From Pectobacterium polaris (GTDB lineage Bacteria; Pseudomonadota; Gammaproteobacteria; Enterobacterales; Enterobacteriaceae): a stretch of DNA of 64,000 bases. Of this stretch, positions 2 through 9,938 are shown in pieces; the stretch's first letter is position 1; each line of letters opens with the position of its first letter. The stretch is from positions 310,001 through 374,000 of the forward strand of contig NZ_CP017481.1 in NCBI RefSeq assembly GCF_002307355.1, in the 5' to 3' direction. Under the pieces are notes generated by a model. That model was not told the origin of the DNA and ran no database searches. It worked only from the letters and a program-made list of their open reading frames with translations. The position numbers were made by a program, and so were the translations under genes.

Positions 2-1231
2 TCCACCATCGGTACGGCACAGTCCGCCTTTGAGAACGGCTTTGCCGCATCATGGTCGGTGATTGGCGCCGCCATCGGTTTCCCGCTGTTTGGTATGATT
101 CTGGTGAAGAAGATTTATAACACCGGGAAAATCACCATCTCCGGCGCGATTGCCGAGAAATACGGTACCAGCACCAAGAACATCATTTCGATCATCATGA
201 TCTATGCGCTGTTGCTGGTTAACGTGGGCAACTACGTCAGCGGCGCGGCAGCCATCGCCACGGTGTTGAAAGTCTCCCTGCCTGTCGCCGCGCTGATCAC
301 TGCCATCGTCAGTACTTTCTACTACTATTTCGGTGGCTTGAAAGGAACGGCCTACATCACGCTGATCCACAGTGCCGTGAAGTACGCTGGCGTCATGATC
401 ATTCTGTTTGTGGCATTGAAAATGACCGGCGGCTTTAAGCCAATGATCGAACAAATGCCGGATTACTACTGGACGTGGGACGGTAAGCTCGGTGCCAGCA
501 CCATCTTCGCCTGGCTGATCGGGACTATCGGTTCTATCTTCTGTACGCAGTTCGTGATTCAGGCAATTTCGTCAACGAAAGATGCCACCAGCGCTAAACG
601 TGCTACCTGGGTTGCCTTCTTCTTCTGTATGCCGATTGCGCTGGCTATCGCGGTCATCGGTGTTGCAGCGAAGTTTGCCCACCCTGAAATCAACAGCCTG
701 TACGCAATGCCAGTCTTCTTGCAAGACATGAACCCATGGCTCGCTGGTCTGGTCACCACGTCACTGGTCGCGTCTATCTTCATCAGCGTGAGTATGGTGG
801 CACTGGCTATCGTTTCCCTGCTGATTAAGGATTTCTACGTTCCTTACTGGAAACCGACGCCAGAAAAAGAAATGAAAATGACCCGGATCCTCTCGCTTGT
901 CGTAGGTTTCGCGCCGCTCATCTTCGTTCTGTTCGTCCCTGAAATCCTGAAGCTGTCATTCTTTACGCGCGCCATTCGACTGTCGATTTCCGTGGTTGCC
1001 GTCATTGCGTTCTACCTGCCGTTCTTCGGCAGCGCTCGCGGTGCAAACGCCAGCCTGATCTCCGCCTGCGTGGCCACCTCTGTTTGGTATATTCTCGGCA
1101 ACCCATACGGCATTGATAACATGTATGTCGCGTTGGTTACCCCTGCTGTCGTCATACTGATCGACCGCATGATTCCGAACAAAGCGAACAAAATCAAAAC
1201 CTCTCCAACTGAAAATAAATCGGGAGCCTGA
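2..1231 (+). CDS. Sodium:solute symporter (SSS family), 5' end cut by window
   Basis: The reading frame is open from base 2, so the gene starts outside the window; about 409 residues are visible. The product is an inner-membrane protein with many hydrophobic helices and a short charged tail. The early stretch STIGTAQSAF, followed by alternating helices and the YYYFGGLKGTAYITLIH segment, is typical of sodium/solute symporters, which use the sodium gradient to import small organic solutes. The substrate cannot be read from the sequence. The stop overlaps the ribosome site (GGGAG) of the next gene, which starts 3 bases later, so the two are very probably co-transcribed. The neighbours (Asp-box protein, YhcH family) suggest a sugar acid or sialic-acid-like substrate; that is inference. 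Confidence 0.85.
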   Translation, partial: STIGTAQSAFENGFAASWSVIGAAIGFPLFGMILVKKIYNTGKITISGAIAEKYGTSTKNIISIIMIYALLLVNVGNYVSGAAAIATVLKVSLPVAALITAIVSTFYYYFGGLKGTAYITLIHSAVKYAGVMIILFVALKMTGGFKPMIEQMPDYYWTWDGKLGASTIFAWLIGTIGSIFCTQFVIQAISSTKDATSAKRATWVAFFFCMPIALAIAVIGVAAKFAHPEINSLYAMPVFLQDMNPWLAGLVTTSLVASIFISVSMVALAIVSLLIKDFYVPYWKPTPEKEMKMTRILSLVVGFAPLIFVLFVPEILKLSFFTRAIRLSISVVAVIAFYLPFFGSARGANASLISACVATSVWYILGNPYGIDNMYVALVTPAVVILIDRMIPNKANKIKTSPTENKSGA

Positions 1232-1234
1232 GTC

Positions 1235-2422
1235 ATGAGTAGCGAAATCATTACTGTGGAACGTAGCGGAAAAGTTCATCACGCAGAAGGCGATGCCGCG
1301 CGTCTGGATGCCTACATTCCATCGGAATGCCCGCAGAATCATGCGGCCAACCTGCTCCATCTGCCGAACGGCGATGTGCTGTGTGTCTGGTTTGGCGGTA
1401 CCCAAGAAGGGATTGCAGATATCTCTATCTACATGTCTCGCCTGGTGAAAGGCAGCGATAACTGGAGTCAAGCCGTTAAGCTGTCTGAAGATGCTACGCG
1501 TTCTGAGCAGAACCCAGTTCTGTTCCTCGCACCGGACAACGTGCTCTGGCTGCTGTACACCGCGCAGAAATCCGGTAATCAGGACACTGCGATTGTGCGC
1601 TACCGCCAGTCTACGGATTTGGGTGTGACCTGGGGCGAGATCGGCACGTTGCTCGATCAGCCGGGCACCTTCATCCGCCAGCCCATCACTGTGCTGAAAA
1701 ACGGCGACTGGCTGCTGCCGGTGTTCTACTGCCGCGTTCAGCCGGGTGAGAAATGGGTCGGCAACGATGATGACAGCGCCGTAAAAATTTCCAGCGATCA
1801 GGGGAAAACCTGGCAGGAATACCCGGTGCCAAACAGCACGGGCTGCGTGCATATGAACATCACCCCGTTGCACGACGGCACGCTGCTGGCGCTGTACCGC
1901 AGTCGCTGGGCTGATTTCATCTACCAAAGCCGTTCAACGGATGGCGGTAAAACCTGGTCGGATCCCGTGCCGACCGATTTGCCGAACAATAACTCGTCCA
2001 TTCAGGTGACGACGCTGGAGAATGGCCATCTGGCGCTGGTGTTCAACCATATGAGCGCCGCCGATGCCACCGAACGCCGTCTGTCGCTGTACGATGAAAT
2101 CGAGGATGAAGAAGACAAAGCCAGCGATGCCAAAATACCGGAAGTACAAGCTGGTGGCCGTAGCGCCTTCTGGGGTGCTCCACGCGCCCCGATGACGCTC
2201 GCCATTTCGGAAGACGGCGGTAAAAGCTGGCCGTGGCAGCGTAATATCGAAGTGGGTGACGGTTACTGCATGACCAATAACTCCACGGAGAAGCTGAACC
2301 GCGAGTTCTCTTACCCCAGCGTCAAACAAGCGCAAGACGGTAAGCTGCACGTAGCGTTCACCTACTTCCGTCAGGCGATCAAGCACGTCGTGGTGAGTGA
2401 AGAGTGGGTCAAAGCGAACTAA
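1235..2422 (+). CDS. Sialidase-like Asp-box (BNR repeat) protein
   Basis: A 395-residue protein with four Asp-box motifs (S-x-D-x-G-x-T/S-W) at residues 126-133, 186-193, 234-241 and 325-332. Their spacing fits a beta-propeller of the sialidase superfamily (BNR_2-like). There is no signal peptide or membrane segment, so the product should be cytoplasmic. A canonical sialidase F/Y-R-I-P motif is absent; the nearest match is FIRQP at 146-150. An acidic insert (about 287-299, rich in D/E) interrupts the propeller. It starts 3 bases after the symporter stop with a GGGAG ribosome site. A glycosidase or lyase acting on an imported sugar acid is plausible, but neither activity nor substrate can be established here. 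Confidence 0.8.
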   Translation: MSSEIITVERSGKVHHAEGDAARLDAYIPSECPQNHAANLLHLPNGDVLCVWFGGTQEGIADISIYMSRLVKGSDNWSQAVKLSEDATRSEQNPVLFLAPDNVLWLLYTAQKSGNQDTAIVRYRQSTDLGVTWGEIGTLLDQPGTFIRQPITVLKNGDWLLPVFYCRVQPGEKWVGNDDDSAVKISSDQGKTWQEYPVPNSTGCVHMNITPLHDGTLLALYRSRWADFIYQSRSTDGGKTWSDPVPTDLPNNNSSIQVTTLENGHLALVFNHMSAADATERRLSLYDEIEDEEDKASDAKIPEVQAGGRSAFWGAPRAPMTLAISEDGGKSWPWQRNIEVGDGYCMTNNSTEKLNREFSYPSVKQAQDGKLHVAFTYFRQAIKHVVVSEEWVKAN

Positions 2423-2466
2423 ACCGCGCTGCTTTTTCTCTTTGTCAGCGGGGGTTCTCCCCCGCA

Positions 2467-2591
<125 letters not shown>

Positions 2592-2608
2592 ATCTTCAGG
2601 ATACTATT

Positions 2609-3076
2609 ATGATTGCAGGAAACCTCAACGCCCTCAAACTCGCTACGCTGCCCGATGCACTGTGGGCGATTCTGTCCGCACCGGGCATGTCGCTGGCTGA
2701 ACTGAATGCGCTGCCCGAAGGCCGTTACCAGCCGGAAGGTGCCGACTGGTTCTACAACATCGGCACCGTGAACACCGCACCGCGTGCCACGAGACATACC
2801 GAATTTCACAGCAACTACCTCGATATTCAACTGATTCTGGAAGGTGAGGAGATTATCGGTTACGGTCTGAATGATGTGCATGGTCAGCCCGCGACTGAAC
2901 GTAAGCCGGACCTCTACATTCTGGATAATCCTCAGGTGCCGCATCAGATCCACCTTCGGGCAGGCGACTTCGTCACGTTCTATCCGGGTGAAGCCCATCA
3001 GGCGCTGTGTGCGATTAACGACAGCCCTGCTCCGGTCAAAAAAGCCGTGTTTAAAATCCCCGTCACGTTATTGTAA
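2609..3076 (+). CDS. YhcH/YjgK/YiaL family protein
   Basis: A 155-residue protein of the YhcH/YjgK/YiaL (DUF386, EbgC-like) family, a cupin-like fold. The family pattern ATRHTEFHSNYLDIQLILEGEE and the later PGEAHQAL are present; their His and Glu residues line the presumed metal/sugar pocket. E. coli relatives lie in the nan (sialic acid) and yia sugar clusters and are thought to handle sugar anomers or epimers. An AGGA ribosome site lies 8 bases before the ATG. The gene is downstream of the symporter and Asp-box genes across the ERIC element, which supports a shared sugar pathway. Confidence 0.88.
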   Translation: MIAGNLNALKLATLPDALWAILSAPGMSLAELNALPEGRYQPEGADWFYNIGTVNTAPRATRHTEFHSNYLDIQLILEGEEIIGYGLNDVHGQPATERKPDLYILDNPQVPHQIHLRAGDFVTFYPGEAHQALCAINDSPAPVKKAVFKIPVTLL

Positions 3077-3122
3077 TTAAGAATGGTTGCATCAAAGCCG
3101 TTAAGTTTGATTAAGGAGACAC

Positions 3123-3812
3123 ATGTCAACGACAGCCCCTAAACACGCCCTGATTACCGGTAGCAGCTCAGGGATCGGTGCCGCCATCACACAAAAATTA
3201 CTGGCGGAAGGCTGGCGGGTAACCGGCCTGTCACGCAAGCCGGGTGACTATTCACATCCACACTTTACCCACCGCGCGGTGGATATCATGGATACGCCCG
3301 CGCTGACGGCTATTCTGGACGAGATTACGCAGGTTGATGCCGTGATCCATGCCGCTGGCATCATGAAAGCGGCCCCGCTCGGTCAGCTTTCGCTGGAAGA
3401 CGGTGAAACGCTGTGGCGATTGCATATCAACGCGGCGCAGGTGCTTGCCGACCGTCTGGTCGATAAGCTGCCGCAGGGTGGCCGGATTGTACTGCTGGGC
3501 AGCCGCACGTCGAGCGGTTCAGCAGGACGCAGCCAGTACGTCACCACCAAATCCGCAATGATCGGCATGGCAAGAAGCTGGGCAGCGGAACTGGCTCCGC
3601 GCGGCATTACGGTAAACATCGTCGCGCCGGGCGCAACGGAAACGCCGATGCTGACGATGCCGGGCCGCCAGAGTTCTCCGCCGAAGCTGCCACCGATTGG
3701 GCGCTTCATCCAGCCACAGGAAGTGGCAGATTTGGTGGGTTATCTGCTCTCCCCATCTGCCGCAGCCATTACCGGGCAGCAGTTGGTGATGTGCGGTGGC
3801 GCATCGCTGTAA
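3123..3812 (+). CDS. Short-chain dehydrogenase/reductase (SDR)
   Basis: A 229-residue classical SDR. The Rossmann nucleotide motif TGSSSGIG is at residues 12-19, a HAAG variant of the NNAG structural motif at 77-80, and the catalytic YxxxK as Y139-V-T-T-K143 with Ser residues just before it. The PGATETPM stretch follows the active site as usual. It should be a cytoplasmic NAD(P)-dependent oxidoreductase of a sugar or hydroxy acid. An AAGGAG ribosome site lies 5 bases before the ATG. It is the last gene of the apparent symporter/Asp-box/YhcH operon, which ends at a long hairpin shared with the convergent regulator. The substrate is unknown. Confidence 0.88.
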   Translation: MSTTAPKHALITGSSSGIGAAITQKLLAEGWRVTGLSRKPGDYSHPHFTHRAVDIMDTPALTAILDEITQVDAVIHAAGIMKAAPLGQLSLEDGETLWRLHINAAQVLADRLVDKLPQGGRIVLLGSRTSSGSAGRSQYVTTKSAMIGMARSWAAELAPRGITVNIVAPGATETPMLTMPGRQSSPPKLPPIGRFIQPQEVADLVGYLLSPSAAAITGQQLVMCGGASL

Positions 3813-3826
3813 GCCATCACGATTTC

Positions 3827-3861
3827 CTAGCCAAACTGGCCCCACAGGCCGGTTTGGCTAG
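3827..3861. terminator. Bidirectional hairpin between convergent genes
   Basis: A 15-bp inverted repeat (arms 3827-3841 and 3847-3861, one G-U pair, five-base loop) lies exactly between the SDR gene and the convergent regulator, and includes the regulator's TAG stop codon. There is no clear T-tract on either strand, so termination is inferred from stem strength and position. Confidence 0.55.
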
Positions 3862-5048
3862 CTGCTGGCGCGCGGCTCAAAGATGAATTTCACCTTTTCC
3901 TGTACGGGGGGATGCTCGTCGTTGTCCATCATGGCGAGCACCAAACGCCCAACCTCCGCCCCCAGCTTTTCATAGTCCAGTCGCATCGCGGTCAGCGCTG
4001 GGAACGTGTGCTCACATTGTTCAGAACCATCCAGACAGGCAATCGCTAGATCGTAAGGGACTTTCATCAGGCGGCGCTGGCATTCAAAGAGCGCGCCCAG
4101 CGCTATTTCCTCATGACTACAGATAATCGCATCCAGCTCCGGCTGGTTTTGTAGCAGTTCCGTCATGGCATAGCGGCCAAATTGCAGACTCGGTGCCTCC
4201 GGGATAGTAATTTTCAAATCCGCATTGTGATAATGCGCCAGCATGGCTTTATTCCAACCGTTCAACTGCTGTTTTTGCAAACGGTTATCCGTATGAGCGC
4301 CGATATAAGCCACGTGGCGATACCCCTTTTCCAGCAGCGACATCGTCAGTTGCTCCGCCGCTTCGGCAAGGGCGATATCAATATTGATGTTCGCACTCAG
4401 CACATCAGCACCGGAAACGTTCACCGTAATGACGTTACTGGCCTGAATAATATCTCGGGTTCGCTGTGAGAGTTGCGCGCTGAATAACACCAACGCCGCT
4501 GGCCGCTGTTGCAGGAGTTTTTCGACCATGCCCGCTTCGGTATGCTGGCGATATTCATGGCAGCCCATGATTAACGGAACGTTATGTTTACCGACTGCCT
4601 GTTGCAGCGCCTGCACAAAACGCACGCTGGCGCGATCTTGCTGAAAAGGATAAAGCACTGCGATAGCAGGCTGATAGGCTGATGCCAGCGCGCCTGCGGC
4701 CTGATTCGGTACATAGCCCAGCGTTTTTATCGCATCATTGATTTTCTTCTGTGTCGCATCAGAAACCAACCCTGGCTCCCGCAACGCACGGGACACCGTC
4801 ATCGCGCCGACACCGGCATGGCTCGCAATGTCCTGTAGCGTCACGCGACTCGTACTCTCGGTGAGCTGGCTGGCCTCTTGATTGGGTTCATAGCCTAATG
4901 CTCTGGCGGCCAGTTCCACTTTGCTGCGTAACTTTTCAGAGACCAGATCGGGTTTGCGCATCACGCGCGATACCGTCATCGTCCCTACGCCCGCGTAGTC
5001 GGCGACATCCTGTAGCGTAACCTTACCGGTACTGCGACGCTTACGCAT
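3858..5048 (-). CDS. LacI/GntR-type transcriptional regulator with two tandem HTH domains
   Basis: A 396-residue repressor. The start is taken at the ATG at 5048 because GGAGAGGAAG lies just upstream; an in-frame ATG 11 codons earlier has no such site. Two complete LacI-type helix-turn-helix domains are visible: residues 11-57 (TLQDVADYAGVGTMTVSR...) and 70-116 (TLQDIASHAGVGAMTVSR...), followed by one hinge (AAGALAS) and one periplasmic-binding-like effector domain. A normal member has a single N-terminal domain and about 330-340 residues. The G-x-MTVSR-x-M/L-R-x-P type of HTH resembles GntR/IdnR gluconate repressors. It is divergent from the PTS/aldolase genes and is probably their regulator. 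Confidence 0.9.
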   Translation of the reverse strand: MRKRRSTGKVTLQDVADYAGVGTMTVSRVMRKPDLVSEKLRSKVELAARALGYEPNQEASQLTESTSRVTLQDIASHAGVGAMTVSRALREPGLVSDATQKKINDAIKTLGYVPNQAAGALASAYQPAIAVLYPFQQDRASVRFVQALQQAVGKHNVPLIMGCHEYRQHTEAGMVEKLLQQRPAALVLFSAQLSQRTRDIIQASNVITVNVSGADVLSANINIDIALAEAAEQLTMSLLEKGYRHVAYIGAHTDNRLQKQQLNGWNKAMLAHYHNADLKITIPEAPSLQFGRYAMTELLQNQPELDAIICSHEEIALGALFECQRRLMKVPYDLAIACLDGSEQCEHTFPALTAMRLDYEKLGAEVGRLVLAMMDNDEHPPVQEKVKFIFEPRASS

Positions 5049-5094
5049 GCTCACTTCCTCTCCATTCGTCATTTTTCTCATCGCACGGTCGCGA

Positions 5095-5107: not shown

Positions 5108-5363
5108 CGTCATTGCCTTCAGGCTAGCGTGAAGGGGTAGGCAACGTGAGAACACCCGATTTCCCGACTCATTCACGCCGTGTTATCGCCGTTCATAGTG
5201 TGCCTGTGACAACACGGGGGAACAAATAATGGCCCCGCTTGTGCTAAGCAGGTCACAGTTAATGATAGTCATATCAGTTAGCGCTATCTTTTTAGATGTT
5301 AATCACATTATTTTCGAGGCCGGCACACTATCCTGCGTTCAGAATGATACAGAGGTGACTCTA

Positions 5364-5807
5364 ATGCTTAACACTTTACTAACACCAGACGTTGTTCAGA
5401 TTTTACCTGCCTGTGATGACTGGCGTCACGCTATCGCCTTGTCCTGTAAGCCTTTACTGGATAACGGTTCGATTGAACCCACTTATGTTGAGGCGATCTA
5501 CCGCTCTCATGAGGCCATCGGTCCTTACTATGTCGTCGGCCCGGGAATTGCCATGCCGCATGCGCGCCCGGAAGACGGCGTAAACCAACTCGCCGTCAGC
5601 CTGACGCTGATTCGCGACGGCGTGGTTTTCCATTCCGAAGACAACGATCCTGTGCATTTACTGATTGTTCTGGCCGCCACAGACAGCAACAGCCATATCG
5701 ATATTATTTCACAGCTCGCGCAGTTGTTCGACACGCCTGATGACGTCGCCGCGTTAATTAACGCGACGGAAGTCGAACAGGTGCTTTCCGTTATTTCTCG
5801 TTATTAA
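5364..5807 (+). CDS. PTS EIIA component, ascorbate/fructose type
   Basis: A 147-residue PTS EIIA domain (mannitol/fructose/Ula type). The start is placed at the ATG at 5364, preceded by AGAGGTGA; a longer open frame reaching 5229 has no ribosome site and an untypical sequence. The phosphorylated histidine is H66 in GIAMPHARPEDG, the hallmark of this family. The length is close to E. coli UlaC. It accepts phosphate from HPr and passes it to the EIIB encoded next. It is the first gene of an operon with EIIB, EIIC and an aldolase, divergent from the double-HTH regulator. Confidence 0.88.
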   Translation: MLNTLLTPDVVQILPACDDWRHAIALSCKPLLDNGSIEPTYVEAIYRSHEAIGPYYVVGPGIAMPHARPEDGVNQLAVSLTLIRDGVVFHSEDNDPVHLLIVLAATDSNSHIDIISQLAQLFDTPDDVAALINATEVEQVLSVISRY

Positions 5808-5829: not shown

Positions 5830-6117
5830 ATGAAAATTACAGTCGTATGCGGTAACGGCCTGGGTACCAGCCTGATGATGGAAATGAGCATTAAAAACAT
5901 CGTTAAAGAACTCGGCGTGGTTGCTGACGTGGATCACGTAGATTTAGGCTCGGCGAAAGGCACGGACAGCGACATCTTTGTCGGTACAAAGGATATTGCC
6001 GATCAGCTCGTCGCGCAGGCAGTCGGGGGGAAAATTGTGTCCCTGAGCAACATGATCGATAAAGTGGCGATGAAAGAGCGCCTGTCGGTCGCCCTGACAG
6101 AACTTGGCGCATTATAA
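5830..6117 (+). CDS. PTS EIIB component, ascorbate (Ula/Sga) type
   Basis: A 95-residue EIIB with the phospho-cysteine loop at the N terminus (VVCGNGLGTSLMM, active C7), typical of the lactose/ascorbate EIIB fold and similar in length to UlaB. It relays phosphate from EIIA to the sugar during uptake through the EIIC encoded 14 bases downstream. Ribosome site CAGAGGA. The sugar is not identifiable from the sequence. Confidence 0.88.
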   Translation: MKITVVCGNGLGTSLMMEMSIKNIVKELGVVADVDHVDLGSAKGTDSDIFVGTKDIADQLVAQAVGGKIVSLSNMIDKVAMKERLSVALTELGAL

Positions 6118-6131
6118 GCGAGGGATCAAAA

Positions 6132-7391
6132 ATGGAATTCTTCCGTTTTTTAATGAGTGATGTGCTGTCTGAACCGTCCATATTGGTCGGTTTGATTGCG
6201 CTTATCGGCCTGATTGCACAGAAAAAACCGGTTACGGAATGCATCAAGGGCACGGTGAAAACCGTCATGGGTTTCCTGATCCTCGGGGCGGGCGCGAGCC
6301 TGATCGTGTCCTCGCTGGGAGATTTCGCCCAGATTTTCCACCATGCATTTGGTATCGCCGGTGTGGTGCCGAACAATGAAGCCATTGTCGCGGTAGCACA
6401 GAAGAACTTCGGCACCGAGATGGCGATGATCATGTTCTTCGCGATGGTCATCAATATCGCGATTGCCCGCTTTACGCCGTGGAAATACATTTTCCTGACC
6501 GGCCACCACACGCTGTTTATGTCGATGATGGTTGCCGTGATTCTGGCGACCGCAGGCATGAAAGGCGTGCTGCTGATTACCGTTGGGTCGCTGGTCGTTG
6601 GGGTATCAATGGTGCTGTTCCCTGCCATTATTCACCCGTATATGAAGAAAGTCACAGGCTCGGATGACGTCGCCTTTGGTCACTTCTCGGCGATATCACA
6701 GCTGCTGTCAGCGTTTATCGGCAGCAAGTTTGGTAATAAAGAGAAATCAACGGAGGACATGGAAGTACCAAAGAGCCTGCTGTTCCTGCGTGATACGCCG
6801 GTTGCCATCGCCTTTACCATGTTTTTCATCTTCATTTTCACCTGCCTGTTTGCCGGCCCTGAAGCGGTGAAAACGATGAACGCCGGTGGGAAAAACTGGT
6901 TCATGTTTTCGCTGATCCAATCCATTACCTTTGCCGCTGGCGTATACATCGTGCTGCAAGGCGTGCGGATGGTGATTGCGGAAATCGTGCCTGCGTTTAA
7001 AGGCATTTCTGACAAACTGGTTCCCAACGCTAAACCAGCATTAGATTGCCCCGTGGTCTTCCCGTATGCCCCGAATGCCGTTCTGGTCGGCTTCCTGAGC
7101 AGCTTTGCGGCTGGGGTGATCGGTATGGTCCTGCTCTACCTGATGGGATTAACGGTGATCATTCCCGGCGTGGTGCCGCACTTCTTCGTCGGCGCAGCGG
7201 CTGGCGTTTTCGGTAACGCCACCGGCGGACGTCGCGGTGCAATTTTAGGTTCTTTTGCCAACGGACTGCTGATTACCTTCCTGCCTGTTTTCCTGCTGCC
7301 AGTGCTGGGCAGTATCGGACTGGCGAACACCACGTTCAGCGATTCTGATTTCGGCGCAGTGGGGATTCTACTGGGCATTATCGTGCGCTAA
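6132..7391 (+). CDS. PTS EIIC permease, SgaT/UlaA family
   Basis: A 419-residue polytopic membrane protein of the SgaT/UlaA PTS permease family. Recognisable segments are VMGFLILGAGASLIVSSL, FTPWKYIFLTGHHTLFMSMM, and the C-terminal PHFFVGAAAGVFGNATGGRRG with FANGLLITFLPVFLL. E. coli UlaA is somewhat longer (about 465). It forms the sugar channel and works with the preceding EIIA and EIIB. The pairing with a fructose-6-phosphate aldolase-like enzyme instead of the Ula lactonase/decarboxylase set argues that the substrate is not ascorbate, or that the pathway differs. Confidence 0.88.
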   Translation: MEFFRFLMSDVLSEPSILVGLIALIGLIAQKKPVTECIKGTVKTVMGFLILGAGASLIVSSLGDFAQIFHHAFGIAGVVPNNEAIVAVAQKNFGTEMAMIMFFAMVINIAIARFTPWKYIFLTGHHTLFMSMMVAVILATAGMKGVLLITVGSLVVGVSMVLFPAIIHPYMKKVTGSDDVAFGHFSAISQLLSAFIGSKFGNKEKSTEDMEVPKSLLFLRDTPVAIAFTMFFIFIFTCLFAGPEAVKTMNAGGKNWFMFSLIQSITFAAGVYIVLQGVRMVIAEIVPAFKGISDKLVPNAKPALDCPVVFPYAPNAVLVGFLSSFAAGVIGMVLLYLMGLTVIIPGVVPHFFVGAAAGVFGNATGGRRGAILGSFANGLLITFLPVFLLPVLGSIGLANTTFSDSDFGAVGILLGIIVR

Positions 7392-7444
7392 GCCCGCATG
7401 ATGAATGTCATCCGACAGACCAGTTTTAGTTAACGGGGGAAATG

Positions 7445-8110
7445 ATGGAATTCTATTTAGATACGGCGGATGTCGCCGCAGTAGAACGACTCGCTGGCGT
7501 GTTGCCGATTAAAGGCGTGACCACCAATCCGAGCATTGTCGCACGCGGAAAATCCGATATTTATAGCGTGCTGCGGGACATGCAGGCCCTTATCGGCACG
7601 GAAGGACAGCTGTTCGCTCAGGTGATGTCGCGCGATCCTGACGTGATGGTGGGAGAGGCATTGAAGCTCAGAGATGTGATTCCTTCTCTGGTCGTCAAAG
7701 TGCCGGTGACGCATGCGGGTTTGAGTGCCATCAGGCAATTGACGGCGCTGGATATTCCCACCCTCGGCACCGCCGTATACGGTGCAGGGCAAGGGTTTTA
7801 TGCCGCGCTGGCTGGCGCTCGCTATATCGCGCCTTACGTCAACCGCATTGATGCGCAGGGTGGCGATGGGATTGCGATCGTGAAAGAGCTGCAAACCCTG
7901 ATTAACCTGCACAGCCCGCAGACTCAGGTACTGGCAGCCAGTTTTCGCACGCCGCGTCAGGTGCTGGACTGCCTGCTGGCGGGGTGTCGGGCGATTACCG
8001 TCGACCCTGCCGTTGCTGAACTGTTCCTGCAAGATCCTGCGGTTGAAGATGCGCTTAACCGGTTCGATCATGACTGGCAAGCACGCTTTGGTCATGCCGA
8101 TCTTGGTTGA
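7445..8110 (+). CDS. fsa: Fructose-6-phosphate aldolase (transaldolase-like)
   Basis: A 221-residue class I aldolase of the TalB/Fsa subfamily. Key FsaA positions are kept: Schiff-base K85 (VVKVPVT), Q59 (LFAQV) and Y131 ([12 protein letters not shown]). The KGVTTNPS and [10 protein letters not shown] motifs also match, and the length equals E. coli FsaA (about 220). The ATG at 7445 fits the MEFYLDT family start and lies 5 bases after GGGGG, better than the ATG at 7442. The enzyme cleaves or forms fructose 6-phosphate from dihydroxyacetone and glyceraldehyde 3-phosphate in vitro. Its place after EIIABC suggests it splits the phosphorylated product of that transporter. Confidence 0.9.
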
Positions 8111-9258: not shown

Positions 9259-9938
9259 ATGTCATCACAAGACATGATAAACATCTATTATTTCTTGTTT
9301 GAAGGTGTCAAGTACACGCTCATCGTCACATTTACGTGTTTTTCATCAGCCTTGGTTATTGGATTAACCGTCGCCGTGTTACGGCGACTGGTTTTTCCCC
9401 CAGTGAAGAACATACTGGATATTCTGGTCTTCATTTTTCGTGGTATTCCCGTTTTAATCGCTGTCTTCCTCGTTTATTTCGGCCTTCCTGCAATAGGCCT
9501 GAGCATTCCCCCCTGCTTGCCATGAACATTAGCATTGGCTTAATCAGCGGGAGTTATCTTGCGGAAGTGTTCCGTGGTGCGCTTCAATTGGTTGATCCGT
9601 CAGAGATTACCGCCGCCAAGACCGCAGGTTTAGGGAAATTACAAATTATAAGATACATCGAGCTACCGCAAATGCTCCGCTTTTCTGTTCCTGGGGTAGC
9701 CAACGAATTCTCATCGGTATTAAAAGCCACACCTTTTGCCTACACCGTGGGTATACCAGAAATCACCAAGCAGGCCATGTCCCTGACCGCAGTCACGATG
9801 AACGGTCTGGTCATTTATACGCTGGCGGCAATCCTTTATTTTCTCATTTACAAATTATCTATTATTGCCGTAAGGCGGCTTGAAATGAGATTTCAGGTAA
9901 CGGGCGATGGCTTGAAAAATCAGGGTGGCAATAGATGA
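9259..9938 (+). pseudogene. ABC transporter permease (HisM/GlnP type), frameshifted
   Basis: Two overlapping frames together make one permease. Residues from 9259 to the C run read SSALVIGLTVAV... to FRGIPVLIAVFLVYFGLPAIGLSIPP. The rest (NISIGLISGSYLAEVFRGAL, the EAA-like loop with AAKTAGLGKLQIIRYIELPQ) continues one base out of phase to 9938. The break is at the six-C run 9508-9513: one extra C restores GLSIPPLLAMNIS and a protein of 226 residues, the normal size. Unless suppressed by slippage or caused by a sequencing error, the gene is inactive. Its end overlaps the ATPase gene as ATGA. Confidence 0.88.

Follow-up and report, generated by a model that had tools for sequence, protein, structure and literature searches.

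Repressors of the LacI/PurR/CcpA type join a LacI helix-turn-helix (HTH) domain through a hinge to a Peripla_BP sensor, bind an even palindrome with a central CG and have a divergent local target. LacI itself is the textbook repressor, and it comes close to being a rule of the family that paired hinge helices open a central CpG. One HTH per chain is usual in the family without being its defining trait. In LacI proteins a hinge leucine is described as inserting into the central CG with support from a nearby alanine (PMC2978694), and the hinge leucine of CcpA is given as L56 (PMC5809078). A central CG is reported for 1173 of 1303 LacI-family motifs, with a different pair in 49 and a degenerate centre in 29 (PMC4052901).

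The regulator studied here is encoded in a 64,000-nucleotide stretch of the Pectobacterium polaris genome (contig NZ_CP017481.1, positions 310,001 to 374,000), called the window. It resembles LacI, PurR and CcpA in its LacI-type HTH, hinge, Peripla_BP sensor and divergent local target, and in an even palindrome with a central CG (op2), but differs from them in having two HTH modules per chain and a second palindrome from which the central CG is missing. Its best NCBIfam match is the GntR (gluconate) subgroup NF052440, which makes GntR the nearest subgroup, as the LacI/GntR-type label of a preliminary description implied; the score of 286 bits nevertheless falls below the equivalog cut-off of 400 bits, the neighbouring genes are an ascorbate-type PTS operon, and identity with the gluconate repressor is rejected. 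CytR of E. coli has one HTH, and CytR identity was likewise rejected (NF008269, 137.6 bits; equivalog cut-off 436). This LacI-family protein is described as binding mostly between two CRP sites, an arrangement of which the CRP-like sites found here are reminiscent, and as tolerating different half-site spacings (PMC3454398); CytR has a flexible linker, whereas the half-site spacing of our regulator is fixed and only the centre of op1 is free. AraC-type regulators carry two HTH motifs in one chain but belong to a different family, in which a domain of ~60 residues, rather than two LacI heads, is said to hold both motifs (PMC5882156). Xre-RES of Pseudomonas putida has more than one dimeric DNA-binding unit and binds asymmetrically, but is presented as a 4:2 complex of separate chains with no duplicated domain in one chain (PMC12204516). 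No description of a double-HTH LacI protein was found in the titles and abstract openings of the open-licence literature; the operator strings of the locus do occur in that literature, in no case, judged by title, in a paper on this regulator.

Two HTH modules in one LacI-family chain

The regulator gene and its parts are as follows.

3858..5048, minus strand: LacI-family regulator gene, 396 aa, with two HTH modules and a Peripla_BP sensor
4881..5018, minus strand: HTH module 1, N-terminal, RKRR arm kept, recognition motif GVGTMTVSR (PF00356, 66.2 bits; dN/dS 0.053)
4854..4883, minus strand: hinge-like segment of module 1, NQEASQLTES, residues 56-65, with an acid at LacI position 52
4704..4841, minus strand: HTH module 2, recognition motif GVGAMTVSR (PF00356, 65.8 bits; dN/dS 0.078)
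4677..4706, minus strand: canonical LacI hinge NQAAGALASA, between module 2 and the sensor

Both modules exceed the PF00356 cut-off of 27 bits. Two complete LacI-type modules within residues 11-116 (5018-4701, counted from the ATG at 5048) had been proposed at a spacing of 59 residues, and the coordinates, residue numbers and spacing are all confirmed. Homologues begin at the MRKRR of 5048 (396 aa), and the ORF list places the start at 5081 (407 aa). The whole genome holds 21 PF00356 matches in 20 open frames, the double match being found in the regulator frame alone. Module 1 takes the N-terminal place of a single HTH, with its RKRR arm, and module 2 retains the normal junction to hinge and sensor; the two share 28 of 50 residues and 91 of 150 bases. 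The sensor, of which there is one, as had been claimed, is a normal Peripla_BP domain (PF13377, 91.4 bits; cut-off 26.5), and the solved structure nearest by sequence, 3d8u, is itself a sensor domain (E 9e-57). Among the 60 PDB matches listed, of 69 in all, no sequence matched the regulator in two separate stretches. With two modules per chain, the protein departs from the canonical layout of one HTH per chain and two heads per dimer, and is a conserved, old domain-layout variant within the LacI family.

The preliminary description counted one hinge, which understates the repeat: as part of the repeat unit, module 1 is followed by a hinge-like segment of its own that is altered but still present. 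Among distinct hinge strings, an acid occupies LacI position 52, which we take to be a hinge-hinge contact, in 24 of 36 from module 1, 0 of 32 from module 2 and 0 of 10 from single-HTH proteins (drawn from the best 80 of 508 loci and from loci found in genome searches); an acid anywhere at positions 50-58 occurs in 32/36, 5/32 and 0/10, respectively. The module 2 hinge, adjoining the sensor, is normal, with A53 and L56 each in 31/32 distinct strings. Module 1 keeps Ala53 in 35/36 and Leu56 in 25/36 of its distinct strings and, since these residues are partly kept, its hinge may not be dead. Both modules share the recognition motif G-[VI]-G-x-M-T-[VA]-S-R, with one module 2 exception (DVSPMTVSR) among 66. 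At x, which is LacI position 17, the two modules carry different residues in 66 of 66 distinct proteins: T, A, I or V in module 1 and P, A, V, Q or S in module 2. As such, an equal half-site preference is not assured, and the heads appear alike but not identical, as though each were adapted to half-sites of slightly different sequence.

The preliminary description proposed a search for homologues with the same layout across soft-rot genomes, and the layout proves common to 32 protein clusters (P0001-P0031 and P0036, within the best 120 of 2640 homologues), whose named members belong to Pectobacterium, Samsonia, Brenneria izbisi, Erwinia and Winslowiella; P0032, a 324-aa partial sequence, stands outside the tandem counts. 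A query with residues 1-118 recovers the same 32 clusters at 132-230 bits, the next protein scoring 81 bits (best 120 of 376 listed), and a query with the most distant tandem member again places these 32 on top, followed by a drop to 62 bits. The tandem regulator is present end to end and free of internal stops in 21 of 25 Pectobacterium genomes. Together, the recurrence of the layout in 32 clusters and the intact frame in 21 genomes leave an assembly or annotation artefact with a negligible chance of explaining the double HTH. The other four Pectobacterium genomes (G012, G015, G018, G023) have neither a close match to the regulator nor an exact composite operator. Nine Brenneria genomes comprise one with the tandem form, five with a single-HTH form and three with no match; among 118 relatives of genome G143, 15 carry the tandem form, all from one genus (Erwinia group), and a sixteenth match is single-HTH. 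Pantoea coffeiphila (L048) carries the tandem form as well. Among 369 class-level genomes, a query with residues 1-118 at E 1e-15 matched the own genome alone; among 398 at phylum level it matched 10, three of them own-genus at 215-238 bits and seven at 63-78 bits along a portion of the query. Because such searches reach only relatives sharing short words, unrelated double-HTH LacI proteins may exist.

Over 21 Pectobacterium genes, dN/dS is 0.053 for module 1, 0.078 for module 2 and 0.044 for the sensor, and both modules are under purifying selection. In a tree of the sensor only (105 rows), all 39 tandem rows fall on one side of a branch with support 100/100, the placement of long rows such as P0036 being unsure. 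This grouping indicates a single origin of the tandem form, and the match between protein and operator described below therefore represents one evolutionary event, not many. The diverged modules, their dN/dS values and the one tandem origin bear out the earlier view of an old duplication held by selection. Average identity to single HTHs is 66% for module 1 and 64% for module 2, marking neither as the parent copy; a module-parent tree of 46 columns was poorly supported and included one wrongly cut outgroup row (P0214).

Putative operators of the divergent PTS operon

The regulator shares its upstream region with a PTS operon, and the features of the region and the operon are listed below.

5242..5257: op0 position, TGCTAAGCAGGTCA, overlapping the CRP-like distal site TGCTAAGCAGGTCACA (TCACA in 37/37 tandem sequences)
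5263..5276: op1, TGATA-GTCA-TATCA, half-sites kept and central GCGC lost (exact composite match at 5263-5283)
5277..5288: op2, GTTAGCGCTATC, central CpG kept, centre 13 bp from the op1 centre
5292..5307: CRP-like proximal site, TTAGATGTTAATCACA, 50 bp from the distal site (TCACA in 37/37 tandem sequences)
5364..5807, plus strand: PTS IIA-like gene, first of the divergent operon (best NCBIfam match 110.6 bits, below its cut-off of 192)
5830..6117, plus strand: PTS IIB-like gene (50.9 bits to an ascorbate IIBC model, below cut-off)
6132..7391, plus strand: PTS IIC gene, ascorbate (Ula)-type family (NF006919, 619.1 bits; cut-off 380)
7442..8110, plus strand: fructose-6-phosphate aldolase-like gene (TIGR00875, 260.8 bits; cut-off 245.95)

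The start of the IIA-like gene at 5364 was chosen from a conserved GAGGTGAC upstream, the ORF list giving an earlier ATG at 5229. Regulator and PTS IIA, IIB and IIC genes lie within reach of each other at 132 of 133 orthologue loci, divergently at 132/132; at nine paralogue loci (L022-L030) no IIA was seen. Single-HTH orthologues occupy the same spot in Yersinia, Buttiauxella, other Brenneria, Photorhabdus, Providencia, Proteus and others. A simple promoter scan found no promoter, and one terminator-like site lies on the minus strand at 5252-5234, where 0.3 would be expected. In Yersinia rohdei (L086) the frame of the single-HTH orthologue ends after 46 residues, while the PTS genes and three palindromes remain; this sequence is counted as single-HTH for the operators and stands outside the hinge counts.

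Loci of the single-HTH Yersinia, Buttiauxella and Brenneria type contain op0, op1 and op2 of the form TGATAGCGCTATCA, with centres 21 and 13 bp apart, and those of Photorhabdus, Proteus and Providencia contain op0 and op2 only, 34 bp apart. Tandem genomes use the same register, with the central CpG regularly kept at op2 only. Operators were counted over distinct 84-bp stretches (37 tandem, from 56 loci and with L046 included in the reading, and 29 single-HTH with op1 in register), since one genome may appear as two loci. The single-HTH set was picked by the left half of op1 alone and not by its centre; a further 31 single-HTH sequences without op1 in register, sometimes anchored on op0, are left out of the counts. 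In the tandem set, the left half of op1 is TGATA in 37/37 and the right half TA[TAC]C in 37/37, while the centre is GCGC in 0/37 and takes 20 different 4-mers. The central CG of the LacI-family palindrome is found at op2 in 37/37 tandem sequences and at op1 in only one (L136, TGATAACGCTAACA). Tandem op0 has the central CG in 0/37 and a left TGATA in 14/37. In the single-HTH set, by contrast, GCGC occupies the centre of both op1 and op2 in 29/29, and op0 has a central CG in 27/29. The same difference is seen within Brenneria, where the tandem locus L124 has op1 as TGATATCTATATCA, with an open centre, and the single-HTH loci L116 and L125-L128 keep GCGC in 5/5. At three other single-HTH loci, from Klebsiella sp. 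BIGb0407, an uncultured Enterobacteriaceae and Cedecea (L078, L080, L087), three full palindromes lie ~22 bp apart instead of at 21 and 13 bp.

Identity between the Pectobacterium-type (22) and Erwinia-type (15) tandem sequences is 1.00 for the left half of op1, 0.76 for its right half and 0.33 for its centre. For op2 it is 1.00 (TAGC) and 0.80 (GCTA), with 0.87 for the six bases that follow; for op0 it is 0.76 (left), 0.62 (centre) and 0.84 (right), and the spacer between op0 and op1 has 0.78. The CRP-like site gives 0.90, 0.41 and 1.00 for its left, middle and right parts, and outside the block identity is 0.45 over five bases upstream and 0.50 over 13 downstream. By these values, identity within the well-kept block is lowest at the centre of op1 and complete across the op1 left half; the op1 right half stands out less, at a level no higher than that of the op0-op1 spacer.

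The operators lie between two TCACA blocks at a distance of 50 bp from each other in 37/37 tandem sequences and in 27 of the 29 single-HTH sequences with op1 in register; both blocks resemble the CRP consensus and are candidate CRP sites. The exact composite operator occurs once in each of the 21 Pectobacterium genomes with the regulator and in 0/4 without it, as for a local regulator. Elsewhere in the 25 genomes, the composite pattern gave eight inexact hits with two mismatches, the same number as in a backwards control, and a second target was rejected. A scan of the own genome with GATAGCGCTATC found 28 places against 27 in the control, and is uninformative because the count is so close to the control.

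A probable reading of op1 and op2

A reading of the paired palindromes that we consider probable, from the matching differences in protein and operator, is that of a four-headed dimer in which module 2 and its hinge grip op2 and module 1 reads op1 without a hinge. The regulator would be a local repressor of the divergent PTS operon, its dimer presenting four heads and only one normal hinge-helix pair. Module 2, connected by a normal hinge to the sensor, would bind op2 in the usual kinked, sugar-controlled way, and module 1, with its closely similar recognition helix, would read the op1 half-sites TGATA-N4-TATCA/TAACA without hinge insertion, thereby leaving the op1 centre free. The parts fit, as the four HTHs and one good hinge pair of a dimer would face the four half-sites and one CpG of op1 and op2. 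The composite or double-length operator suggested in the preliminary description gains support from comparative sequence, in that the adjacent second palindrome keeps half-sites for an extra HTH pair but has no hinge-binding centre. With two CRP-like sites flanking the operators, the repressor may block CRP-dependent activation.

Crude B-DNA distances are 26-40 A from op2L to op1R, 47-52 A from op2L to op1L and 52-59 A from op2R to op1R, in an estimate that ignores domain offsets and compares with a reach of ~50 A for the 13-residue linker. On this model three heads would bind comfortably and four would be at the limit of linker reach, making occupancy of both palindromes by all four heads of one dimer possible but geometrically tight. 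Counting against the four-headed reading, op0 has lost its centre too and keeps only a weaker left half, the central CG is present in one tandem op1 (L136), and other nearby stretches are also held. Free or different centres are, moreover, reported within the family (49 different and 29 degenerate of 1303; PMC4052901).

Module 1 might instead be a retained spacer or dimerisation element, with op1 read by module 2 of a second dimer under a relaxed need for the hinge, or in alternation with op2. Single-HTH genomes have the same 13 bp between the op1 and op2 centres, and there the dimers must share or alternate; module 1, moreover, partly keeps Ala53 and Leu56. We nonetheless regard this explanation as unlikely: dN/dS shows no weaker constraint on module 1 than on module 2 (0.053 versus 0.078), module 1 keeps its recognition motif, and a spacer role by itself offers no reason why, among in-register loci, the op1 centre is free only where a second HTH is present. 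It is rather improbable that the op1 half-sites are kept for another factor, such as CRP or a second regulator, with op1 a decaying operator of the regulator itself. Such decay would suit the CRP-like TCACA blocks on both sides (37/37 tandem), the fairly well kept spacer before op1 (0.78) and the tandem op0, which also lacks the central GCGC and keeps mainly its CRP-like TCACA; the bases kept in op1, however, match the half-sites of the single-HTH operator in identity and in register.

The preliminary description had also raised the bridging of two sites without tetramerisation. Four heads would permit looping between distant sites in principle, but the exact composite operator is single in each of 21 of 25 genomes, at the regulator locus, and its inexact matches equal the control (8 versus 8) in a scan that would miss sites of quite different sequence. 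With op0 34 bp from op2, probably beyond the reach of the 13-residue linker, bridging finds no support and is very improbable.

The four-headed reading admits a further division of labour, doubtful but conceivable, in which a hinge-free module 1 would hold op1 with or without sugar and the inducer would free only module 2 from op2. If so, the protein would stay tethered at the promoter when induced, allowing fast re-repression, and one dimer would read a kinked and an unkinked palindrome. No natural LacI protein with such a split between anchor and switch was found described in the titles and abstract openings of the open-licence literature. The locus amounts to a natural experiment, in which the same gene and promoter occur with one head or two and the operator differs to match. 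It offers a way to test whether added heads make hinge insertion dispensable, how composite operators arise once a DNA-binding domain is duplicated and whether anchoring is separable from allosteric release, and could inform the design of four-headed regulators in laboratory reporter systems.

Flanking genes

The aldolase-like gene lies 3′ of the PTS genes in Pectobacterium (L031-L041, L045, L046) and is absent after them in Yersinia (L050), Erwinia rhapontici (L043) and Brenneria (L074); because it does not accompany all loci, the sugar pathway may differ among them. On the other side, the regulator adjoins a sialic-acid-type cluster at 59-3812 (symporter, sialidase-like, YhcH-like and SDR genes, named by eye). 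Within 3 kb on this side, L036-L039 and L041 show neither the SDR nor the YhcH gene, and in L032 and L040 these genes are displaced, which makes this flank variable. At 9259-9938, the frame of an ABC transporter permease, also named by eye, appears broken: ORFs 9259-9525 and 9336-9938 overlap and each covers a part of it, a pattern that resembles a frameshift, whether of the gene itself or of its sequence.
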